In this document: piece by piece, positions 38,775 through 44,113 of the stretch | How positions within the stretch are numbered: the first letter of the stretch is position 1 | Layout of the letters: each line of letters begins with the position of its first letter | NCBI RefSeq assembly: GCF_002844595.1 | Contig: NZ_PJNW01000002.1 | Span: forward strand, 558,001-622,000 | Direction of reading: 5' to 3' | DNA length: 64,000 nucleotides | Origin: Pleomorphomonas diazotrophica | GTDB taxonomy: Bacteria > Pseudomonadota > Alphaproteobacteria > Rhizobiales > Pleomorphomonadaceae | Notes under the pieces: model-generated | What the model saw: only the letters and a program-made list of their open reading frames with translations | What the model was told of the DNA's origin: nothing | The model's database searches: none | Made by a program: the position numbers and the translations under genes

Positions 38775-38934
38775 GGTTTATCCCTGAGCGTGCCGATCAT
38801 TGCTGATTGTCGCTGGTCGCTGGCTTGCGGCGGGGCACGGGAGGGTGTCCGTCGACTTCCGATAGGAACTGGCAGGTTTAGCTTCCCCGAATGGGGACAG
38901 CGACGCCTTGGTGAACTGCCGACCGGACCTTTCT

Positions 38935-41399: not shown

Positions 41400-42791
41400 T
41401 CAGCCAAGCCAAACAGCAAGATCGGCGAGCGCGCGGCGACAGATCGCCTGACGCTTGGCAATGGTCTTCTCGTTGCCGCGCAGCCGTCGGTCTGGTTCGC
41501 GCGGTATCTCGACTGGCGGGAAAAGCCCGAAGTTGACGTTCATCGGTTGAAAGGAGCGGGGCGCGCCTTCGGTTTCCGCCGAAATATGCCCGCCGGTGAT
41601 GTGGCCGAGCAGGGCGCCGAGCGCGGTGGTCGGCGGCGGAGGAACGGCTGCGTTGCCGAGTCGCTCGGCGGCAGCAAACCGACCGGCCAGAAGTCCGATC
41701 GATGCCGACTCGACATAGCCCTCGCAGCCTGTCACCTGGCCAGCAAACCGGAGGCGCGGCGCGGCCTTGAGGCGAAGCACCGGGTCGAGCAGACGCGGGC
41801 TGTCGAGATAGGTATTGCGGTGAAGGCCACCGAGCCTGGCAAACTCGGCCCGCTCGAGCCCTGGGATCATTCTGAAAATGTCGACCTGAGCGCCGTATTT
41901 CAGCTTCGTCTGGAAGCCCACCATGTTGTAGAGCGTACCGAGCGCGTTGTCCTGGCGTAGCTGGACGATGGCGTAGGACTTTACGGTGGGATTGCGCGGA
42001 TTGGTGAGGCCGACCGGCTTCATCGGCCCGTGGCGTAGCGTCTCCCGGCCACGCTCAGCCATCACCTCGATCGGCAGGCAACCGTCAAAATAGGGCGTCT
42101 TCTCGAAATCCTTGAACTCGGTCTTGTCGCCCGCGAGCAGCGCATCGATGAAGGCCTCGTACTCGTCGCGGTCCAGCGGGCAGTTGATGTAGTCGGCGCC
42201 GGTGCCGCCAGGGCCGGGCTTGTCATAGCGGGACTGGAACCAGGCCTTGTCCATGTCGATGCTGTCGAAATGGACGATGGGCGCGATGGCGTCGAAGAAG
42301 GCGAGCGATGCGGCGCCGGTGGTCGCCCGGATGGCGTCGGCAAGTGCCGGAGAGGTAAGCGGGCCGGTCGAGACGATCGCATCGCCCCAATCCTCGGGCG
42401 GAAGGCCGTCCACTTCCCCCTCGGCGACGGTCACGAGCGGATGGGCGCGCAGCGTGGCGGTGATCTTGTCGGAGAAGCCGTCGCGATCGACGGCCAGTGC
42501 GCCGCCGGCGGGAACCTTGTTGGCATCCGCGGAGGCCATGATGAGCGAACCGGCGCGGCGCATTTCCTCGTGTAGCAGGCCGACCGCATTGTTCTCATGG
42601 TCGTCGGACCGGAAGGAGTTGGAACAGACCAGTTCGGCGAAGCCGCCGGTCTTGTGGGCTTCCGTGCCGCGCTTGGGACGCATTTCGTGAAGAACGACCG
42701 GAATGCCGCGCGAGACAAGCTGCCAGGCTGCTTCCGAACCGGCCAAGCCGGCGCCGACGATGTGAATGGGGGCGTGGGGCTGATTGGTCAT
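41400..42791 (-). CDS. trmFO: Methylenetetrahydrofolate-tRNA (uracil-54-C5) methyltransferase
   Basis: 463 residues. The FAD-binding motif is [17 protein letters not shown] at the N-terminus, and conserved blocks include [21 protein letters not shown] (folate/FAD region, in parts), CSNSFRSDD and [20 protein letters not shown]. The enzyme makes ribothymidine at position 54 of tRNAs using methylene-THF. It lies 94 bases downstream of the last hairpin of the CcsR-type array on the same strand; no strong ribosome site precedes the ATG, so read-through from the array is possible. Confidence 0.95.
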
Positions 42792-42869
42792 GGCGGGGGG
42801 ATAGCATGTCCGCCGGGCACATGCAGCGTTTTTCCTGAGTTGCGCCCTATGAGCACACAGATCCGGAAA

Positions 42870-42914
42870 GCCTCAAAATGCAAACGCCCACCGGGGGAGG
42901 AGATCCGGTGGGCG
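42870..42914 (-). terminator. Last array hairpin acting as terminator
   Basis: On the minus strand the 10-bp stem 42905-42914 with 42885-42894 is the most GC-rich of the array and is followed immediately by TTTGCATTTTG. It can end the DUF1127-array transcript before trmFO while still presenting the conserved loop. Confidence 0.6.
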
Positions 42915-43235
42915 CCGCAATTTTCTGTAGACGGCATGGGAGGAGGTATGCCGCTACAGCTAGCCTGCGATGCGGGAGGAGGAGCATCGCAGGAGGGTCG
43001 CAGCAAGGGAGGAGGATTGCTGCAACCAAACCGACGTTGCCCAGGGAGGAGGAAGGGCAGGTCGGTACTCACAAATCCGGCGAAATGGTCCTGGGAGGAG
43101 GACGGACCATCGTCGCCTAACGGAAAGATGGGGGAGGAGGACCATCTTTCCAAGACACCGGCCGGAGGGAGGAGGAACCGGCAGGGTGTCTATCAGGGTC
43201 GCCGCGGAACTGGGAGGAGGAAAGTTCGGCAGGCG
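42885..43235 (-). ncRNA. CcsR/cuckoo-type array of nine hairpins with anti-Shine-Dalgarno loops
   Basis: On the minus strand nine successive hairpins each present CUCCUCCC in the loop (usually UCCUCCUCCC). In transcript order they span about 43200-43235, 43154-43190, 43122-43151, 43085-43110, 43031-43065, 42996-43027, 42964-42993, 42925-42959 and 42885-42914. Loop cores begin (plus strand) at 43212, 43167, 43132, 43093, 43044, 43007, 42974, 42938 and 42895, a spacing of 33-49 bases. Stems of 5-10 bp are perfectly paired but unrelated in sequence, so structure and loop are conserved, not primary sequence. The array begins 17 bases after a DUF1127 gene, as in the Rhodobacter sphaeroides ccaF1-CcsR1-4 locus, where the RNAs are cut from the mRNA and modulate metabolism under stress. 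The strand is chosen from this and the terminator-like last hairpin. Confidence 0.85.
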
Positions 43236-43252
43236 AGCCTAATCTCGTGGGT

Positions 43253-43411
43253 TCAGAGCGTCGCCTTGCGGGCGACGTTGGAGATCTCACCGCGGGAGAT
43301 GCCCAGGTCGGCAAGCTCGCGGGCGCTCAGACGGGAGAGCTCGCGGTAGGTCTCCTGGTACTTGCGGTAGCTGCGGAGCTTGTTGACAACGGTGTCCAGC
43401 ATTTCATTCAT
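43253..43411 (-). CDS. DUF1127 small protein (CcaF1-like), leader gene of the RNA array
   Basis: 52 residues from the ATG at 43409-43411: an amphipathic N-terminal helix (MNEMLDTVVNKLRSYRKYQE) and the DUF1127 core YRELSRLSARELADLGIS followed by RGEISNVARKATL. Arg-rich DUF1127 proteins are RNA-binding; CcaF1 of Rhodobacter sphaeroides aids maturation of CcsR RNAs encoded on its own transcript. The start is uncertain: ATG at 43402 and a TTG at 43474 are in frame and no site has a good ribosome-binding sequence. The stop is 17 bases before the first hairpin. Confidence 0.85.
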   Translation of the reverse strand: MNEMLDTVVNKLRSYRKYQETYRELSRLSARELADLGISRGEISNVARKATL

Positions 43412-44113
43412 CCATTCGGGTTGTGAGGCGCTGCGCTCTTCAGTCTGGTGTCTGCTGCGCTTCGCTCTCGACAAGGAGACAATTAGGCGATCGAGGCATG
43501 CGAGGCTAGAGGGGGCTATGCATGTCAGGAATGCAGTTTTCGCGCGGCAGCATTTGTCGCGCTAAAAGTTAACGCTGTCGGCGTCCGATTGCGGCTGAAA
43601 TACGACTTTCGACGGAGGGTGTGGCGCATATTTGCCGCTATTTCATGTTTTTGAGTGACAATTTGATGTGATTACATCAGGAACGAGCTATTGCTGCGAT
43701 GCAGCACAAACGTTGCCTAAAACCTCCCCAAAGAAATTTTGAAAGGCGGCCGCGGTTATGAATGCCCCTGTCGGGTTTGGAACGGCTCGAAAATAGATAC
43801 GTAGATCCAGATAGGCGCCTGAATCGGTTTTGGCTGATGGTACGCGGTTCTGGTTGTTCCAGTTGAATCGTTTTCACCACTCCGCACCAACCCTATGGAC
43901 GATCATCCGAAAATGACAGCGTTGTCATGGACAATGCTGCTGCATCTCCTGGGGTGGTGCCATACGGACGCGGTGGTCCTCGGCTTTGCCGTCCATATGA
44001 CCCGCCGCTACCGGGATGTGAGTGACTGCCGGGTCGCTATGCGACAAGCGGACCTCGGGCAGGCGTTTGGCTGATGTCCTGTCGACTGGCCTTGCGAGCG
44101 GACGGCTGCTCGG
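43412..44113. other. Gene-free region upstream of the DUF1127 gene
   Basis: About 700 bases, clearly AT-richer than the flanks, with no convincing gene. It must contain the promoter for the DUF1127-array transcript. A 16-bp inverted repeat, TGATGT-GATT-ACATCA, lies at 43664-43679. Short open frames (such as 43677-43880 minus) lack ribosome sites and family resemblance. Confidence 0.45.

Follow-up and report, generated by a model that had tools for sequence, protein, structure and literature searches.

We have found that the minus strand of the window, by which we mean the whole 64-kb stretch of DNA that was analysed, carries nine consecutive predicted hairpins at 42879-43241, with CUCCUCCC in every loop (Table 1). 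This confirms the original prediction of nine hairpins with anti-Shine-Dalgarno (anti-SD) loops, the extent of which we correct from 42885-43235 to these coordinates on the minus strand. A search of both strands of the whole window for CTCCTCCC/GGGAGGAG finds the nine array copies only, and the plus-strand GGGAGGAG 8-mers start at 42895, 42938, 42974, 43007, 43044, 43093, 43132, 43167 and 43212. The loops lie 33-49 nt apart from start to start, as had been predicted, and all nine fall within 325 nt. When segments are folded with the loop constrained to be unpaired, the hairpins have 10-16 pairs and energies of -17.5 to -28.0 kcal/mol; all nine stems are paired, but their earlier description as fully paired was too strong, small bulges or mismatches being present in six of them (HP1, HP2, HP4, HP5, HP8 and HP9). 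Besides the linker listed in Table 1, the array has seven others, of 0-5 nt. The 4.5-Mb genome from which the window comes contains 50 copies of CCTCCTCCC, 8 of which lie inside the array's 0.3-kb stretch (8 rather than nine because the ninth loop is TCTCCTCCC), and the array is the sole cluster of this motif in that genome. Direct repeats inside the array are short (20-25 nt, at a minimum length of 14) and only 67-90% identical, which fits the earlier view that the array did not arise by recent tandem duplication, an origin that we reject for this locus.

A gene for a DUF1127 small protein lies directly upstream on the same strand, as is characteristic of the CIN1 arrangement and in agreement with the predicted DUF1127 linkage. 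Its final codon is 36 nt ahead of the first loop, and HP1 begins 11 nt past its stop codon; in all 12 complete arrays of the genus the distance from last codon to first loop is 33-36 nt. The start codon of the gene is uncertain (ATG 43411 or 43402), and a longer mechanical open reading frame (ORF) reaches 43474. Further upstream, about 50 nt of sequence have been conserved among 12 genus members and can still be recognised in three genomes that belong to two other genera; this block is probably a promoter or control region. A scan for sigma-70-like promoters found no site at the locus; an RpoH promoter would be expected of a CIN1/CcsR locus. HP9, which is followed by a U-run, is probably an intrinsic terminator with an anti-SD loop. 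It is absent from our terminator scan, which accepts loops of 3-8 only and which gave a single terminator-like site at the locus, on the plus strand at 43621. The mechanical ORF list also contains a long plus-strand ORF (42597-43349) that overlaps the array; a coding reading of this ORF is made less likely by the pairing of the stems and the near-invariance of the loops. Downstream of the array is a GidA-family gene (PF01134), which we take to be TrmFO-like.

We note several other features of the surroundings. A palindrome, TGCTGCGATGCAGCA, is found upstream of the DUF1127 gene at 43692-43706, and genus members have variants of it in the corresponding position; it could be a regulator site. 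Some 400 nt upstream of the DUF1127 gene, CTGAATCGGTTTT (43819-43831) is present in most of 12 aligned genus members, in an intergenic region that is otherwise variable. On the minus strand at 38870-38925, just downstream of a CHASE/GGDEF/EAL gene, there is a match to the Rfam COG3860 RNA (RF02940; 70.9 bits against a cut-off of 42.5).

Table 1. Features of the array and its upstream region, in minus-strand order
Feature	Position	Strand	Pairs	Loop or sequence	Remarks
Conserved upstream block	43504..43553	-		ATGCTGC..GACATG (43521-43553); CCCTCTAGCC (43504-43513)	
DUF1127 small protein gene (CcaF1-type)	43253..43411	-			PF06568, E 4.6e-14
HP1	43194..43241	-	16	UUCCUCCUCCC	
HP2	43153..43191	-	12	UUCCUCCUCCCU	
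HP3	43121..43152	-	11	UCCUCCUCCC	
HP4	43079..43117	-	13	GUCCUCCUCCCA	
HP4/HP5 linker	43067..43078	-		GGAUUUGUGAGU	Longest unpaired linker, 12 nt
HP5	43030..43066	-	11	UUCCUCCUCCCU	
HP6	42996..43027	-	11	UCCUCCUCCC	
HP7	42964..42993	-	10	UCCUCCUCCC	Hairpin 1 of ar14 match
HP8	42925..42959	-	12	ACCUCCUCCC	Hairpin 2 of ar14 match
HP9	42879..42919	-	15	AUCUCCUCCC	Followed by UUUU

Conservation of fold, loops and strand

The array is complete in 12 of 14 genomes of the genus (the window's own and 13 relatives), and each of the 12 has nine loops at near-identical spacing. Of the two remaining assemblies, G010 (89% complete) has a contig without HP1-4 and the end of HP9, and in G011 (86% complete) the contig ends inside the array. 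In the G010 locus the end of the DUF1127 gene is missing as well, and a halved HP9 stands beside the GidA-family gene, through either a real deletion or an assembly error. Among other genera of the family, we count 8 loops in G014, 8 and 9 in two members of one genus (G018 and G019, respectively), 4 each in G016 and G017, and at least three motif copies in G015. The variation in loop number that the original prediction had looked for among related genomes is thus found in other genera (4, 8 and 9), but not among the 12 complete arrays of the genus, where the number is constant at nine. The loops themselves are retained almost without change: nine close relatives keep 72 of the 72 loop positions of the window, and the two divergent members of the genus, G006 and G007, keep 67 and 71 of 72, respectively, in a MAFFT alignment whose shifts may contribute to these losses.

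We examined covariation in an alignment of those 12 genus members in which the array is complete, G010 and G011 being excluded and five arrays from other genera not being counted. With the structure derived from the window, 95.3% of 1326 cells are paired, a figure that is favoured by taking the structure from one of the aligned sequences. Two-sided change is found at 31 of 111 pairs, compared with 6.6 +/- 2.0 in shuffled alignments (0 of 500 reach 31) and 2-11 in slid controls, and none of the nine hairpins is without such a pair (HP2 has just one). Most of the two-sided cells, as scored against the window's Watson-Crick pairs, come from G006 and G007 (25 of 38), in which MAFFT may misplace stem bases and which have 44 non-pairing cells of other kinds. 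Stems that covary and loops that are kept, rather than lost, across relatives support the claim of the original prediction that selection acts on both fold and loop.

The pattern of changes also bears on the strand. For the nine close relatives, we counted 8 two-sided Watson-Crick changes, 10 G-U, 1 A-C and 4 others as distinct changes from a Watson-Crick pair. The 10:1 ratio of G-U to A-C (p = 0.006) is as expected for an RNA read from the minus strand and favours that RNA as the maintained one, in line with the sense assigned originally. G006 and G007, with 10 G-U against 7 A-C and 42 other non-pairs, are unhelpful for this test.

Array size among related loci

The original prediction held that the array appears larger and tighter than the known locus, a claim that we find to be weak. 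We ran a pattern scan of public genomes and counted hairpin arrays in the 120 stretches among the matches listed. At least 8 loci among these matches have arrays of 7 or more hairpins, and at 8 of 8 a DUF1127 gene lies 18-24 nt upstream; their titles give Rhodobacterales or Rhodobacteraceae, or the genera Paracoccus, Falsirhodobacter, Tabrizicola and Loktanella, which we take to belong to the Rhodobacterales. Motif-only counts on longer stretches gave 12 loops each in Paracoccus kondratievae (L199) and Tabrizicola (L201), 10 in Falsirhodobacter (L200) and 23 in Loktanella atrilutea (L197), and the named Rhodobacterales arrays among the matches listed span 9 to 23 loops. A further locus of the same class, L196, packs eight loops into 374 nt. 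Given Rhodobacterales arrays of up to 23 loops, nine loops in 325 nt are therefore large but ordinary, and we reject a record size for the array, with 12 loops in Paracoccus and 23 in Loktanella. Of 385 genomes drawn evenly from the class, 47 have at least one loop pair, mostly one or two pairs; many of these are chance matches, given that the backwards control has hits in a number of genomes as well.

The Loktanella array (L197:919-1876) has its 23 anti-SD loops in 958 nt, and one loop-to-loop stretch recurs near-identically four times, each step measuring 173-178 nt and corresponding to a block of four hairpins. To judge from these repeats, duplication of whole blocks can enlarge an array, in contrast to what is seen in the window. 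A tandem-repeat search (TRF) of another locus, L144, which is cut off inside its array, gave no tandem rows. Genomes of Rhizobium, Sinorhizobium, Phyllobacterium and Mesorhizobium (L061, L078, L049 and L066, respectively) each have several short arrays, located at different loci, unlike the window's genome, in which the motif clusters at one locus only.

Proposed processing and targets, and known relatives

We consider it highly probable that the locus is of the CIN1 type, with the DUF1127 gene and nine anti-SD hairpins on one transcript that is processed to small RNAs (sRNAs) that block ribosome-binding sites. A promoter upstream of the DUF1127 gene would give a single minus-strand transcript comprising the DUF1127 mRNA and the nine hairpins, with transcription probably ending at HP9. 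The 3' UTR would then most likely be cut by RNase E, aided by the DUF1127 protein, to yield stable multi-hairpin sRNAs. We propose the HP4/HP5 linker as the likeliest site of this cut, which would leave an HP1-4 RNA and an HP5-9 RNA, the latter containing HP7-9 as an ar14 unit. In all 12 complete arrays of the genus, and also in G019, the widest spacing between loops is the one that follows loop 4; this does not hold for G014, G016, G017 or G018. Every loop could pair with a ribosome-binding site of the GGGAGGA type and so block translation, and since the loops would be redundant in action, we propose that the binding capacity of a transcript is set by how many loops it has. The original prediction had also entertained titration of the ribosome's own anti-SD partners. 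We do not favour this idea, because the loops themselves resemble the 16S anti-SD and would thus bind the SD sites of mRNAs, not the anti-SD of the ribosome (a search of the window's genome for 16S rRNA gave no match).

The complement of the loop is in excess before start codons. In the window's genome GGGAGGA-N4-10-ATG occurs 87 times, compared with 17 for a backwards control, and AAGGAGG occurs 79 times at 4-10 nt before ATG, compared with 20 for its control. ORFs of at least 100 aa lie behind 70 of the 87 GGGAGGA sites and behind 41 of the 77 AAGGAGG sites recovered, so that 17 of 87 (ORF below 100 aa) and 38 of 79 (36 short, 2 not recovered) were dropped. We truncated the 70 and 41 proteins to 300 aa and scanned each group as a set, for which the 25 most frequent families were listed; 55 of the 70 and 25 of the 41 were also scanned one by one, the remainder being shorter than about 205 aa. 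Solute-binding proteins make up 17 of the 70 GGGAGGA-led proteins (Peripla_BP_4 6, SBP_bac_1/8 6, SBP_bac_5 3, DctP 2) and 3 of the 41 AAGGAGG-led ones (p = 0.020 one-sided, 0.039 two-sided); these counts supersede an earlier one from the set scan (16 of 70 solute-binding, p = 0.03, and 21 of 70 ABC/TRAP, p = 0.053, both one-sided). The GGGAGGA-led set also has 3 ABC permeases, 2 ABC ATPases and 4 FGGY sugar kinases, and the AAGGAGG-led set 2 ABC permeases, 1 ABC ATPase and 1 FGGY kinase. All ABC/TRAP parts together number 22 of 70 and 6 of 41 (p = 0.038 one-sided, 0.069 two-sided), and FGGY kinases 4 of 70 and 1 of 41 (p = 0.65 two-sided). The enrichment is modest, the protein names were known before it was tested, and a strong SD may be no more than a mark of highly expressed uptake genes. 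Nevertheless, it fits the targets of NfeR1, the ar14 RNA of Sinorhizobium: its redundant anti-SD loops pair with ribosome-binding sites and silence mRNAs, and two tested targets encode periplasmic parts of ABC transporters (PMC10746234). Likely targets in the window's genome would be mRNAs of solute-binding proteins together with other uptake mRNAs, and the most likely function of the locus is to supply processed sRNAs, made with the DUF1127 protein, that block the ribosome-binding sites of these mRNAs.

Other readings of the locus have to be weighed against this one. The plus strand might give rise to the functional RNA, with GGGAGGA hairpin loops acting as a sponge for CsrA in the manner of CsrB or RsmY; there are GGA repeats in the plus-strand loops, and we take these to resemble CsrA sites. 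Yet a search of the window's genome for CsrA (PF02599) gave no match, the 10:1 asymmetry in close relatives points to the minus strand, and the DUF1127 gene, the HP9 U-run and all Rfam matches of the array are on that strand too, which makes a CsrB-like RNA so improbable that we reject it. The hairpins could also serve mainly as a stability or processing element in the 3' UTR of the DUF1127 mRNA, with an RNA-binding DUF1127 protein acting on the loops in cis. The short distance from the DUF1127 stop codon to HP1 (11 nt) would suit such a role, as would the at least 8 loci with 7 or more hairpins among the matches listed, where the first loop follows the last DUF1127 codon by 18-24 nt. We nonetheless think it very unlikely: stability needs no near-invariant 8-nt loops complementary to the SD, many relatives with 3 hairpins are without a same-strand DUF1127 gene within the stretch examined, and the loops of NfeR1 work in trans (PMC10746234).

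A further reading, already contained in the original prediction, is that the nine-loop RNA stays uncut and acts as a multivalent sponge that binds many mRNAs at once or buffers free SD sites, its loop number being tuned by selection. With seven of eight linkers at 0-5 nt the array offers few obvious cut sites, its loop number does not vary among the 12 complete arrays of the genus, and an array as long as 23 loops occurs elsewhere. We regard this reading as unlikely, given that the relatives that have been studied are processed (CcsR by RNase E; PMC10253847), that a 12-nt linker separates HP4 and HP5, and that loop numbers in five genomes elsewhere in the family are 8, 8, 9, 4 and 4, with both 8 and 9 occurring within one genus. 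We are just as doubtful that the loop count per DUF1127-linked transcript (4 to 23) is a heritable dose setting, carried by a long and partly uncut multivalent RNA. If it were, loop count would fix how strongly the translation of uptake genes is held back across the Alphaproteobacteria, and the window's genus would be frozen at nine individually maintained hairpins. Because the array length is constant in the genus and different elsewhere in the family, one can test how loop number affects translational repression, and the locus offers a clean case for comparative work on a group of sRNAs that is known but has been little studied.

The cuckoo RNA family and the CIN1 locus are reportedly the subject of work by Reinkensmeier and Giegerich (2015). 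Our results support the predicted membership of the array in the CcsR/cuckoo/ar14 group. The Rfam ar14 model (RF02344) matches HP7-HP9 (42879..42999, minus strand) with 79.6 bits against a cut-off of 58.8; the window's genome has three ar14 matches, two of them above the cut-off and all within the array, and every Rfam match in the array is on the minus strand. The covariance search suggested in the original prediction thus succeeded with ar14 but not with CcsR1 (RF02791), which scores 27.9-32.3 bits at three places, below its cut-off of 65.3. Relatives in the genus also have ar14 matches above the cut-off (L022, L026 and L162), and the arrays of two relatives from other genera (L021 and L163) have no Rfam match above cut-off. 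Cuckoo RNAs are recognised by hairpins that lie side by side, carry CCUCCUCCC-type loops and have unconserved stems, and all of these features are present here. The locus is a CIN1-type cuckoo/CcsR/ar14 sRNA array, conserved and structurally selected; it is not a new kind of system but a well-conserved and fairly large member of a known alphaproteobacterial sRNA family. A proposal of 2011 (PMC3927594) already envisaged a family with a variable number of hairpin modules and blocking of ribosome-binding sites.

The array resembles each of its known relatives in part. Like ar14/NfeR1, it has in HP7-HP9 a run of three hairpins whose loops carry CCUCCUCCC and whose stems vary, but NfeR1 is described as having three hairpins and its own promoter (PMC10746234), whereas here six hairpins precede this unit and a DUF1127 gene lies directly upstream. 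The published CcsR1-4/ccaF1 locus of Rhodobacter sphaeroides likewise has a DUF1127 gene followed by CCUCCUCCC hairpins; according to PMC10253847, it is one transcript, as we presume for the window, its RNAs are processed by RNase E with CcaF1, and an array just after the DUF1127 gene is the CIN1 arrangement of CcsR-like RNAs. Compared by description, the array of the window differs from that locus in its CcsR1 score below the cut-off and in its nine loops 33-49 nt apart. A layout that is probably closer to CcsR1-4 is seen in L196, whose 8 loops form four pairs 65-68 nt apart, to judge from the CcsR1 model, which has two hairpins, and from the R. sphaeroides RNA, which is reported to have two stem loops (PMC3927594). 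Above-cut-off Rfam matches to ar14 are found in L197 and L199, and none in L196, L200 or L201. With the cuckoo/CIN1 RNAs the array shares a conserved loop motif, non-conserved helices and the association with DUF1127 (PMC10253847 among the sources); these RNAs are described as having 2-4 hairpins each, whereas the window carries nine in one array, as do other large arrays. That an ar14 unit ends a long DUF1127-linked array suggests that the RNAs named separately as ar14, CcsR and cuckoo form a single modular family.
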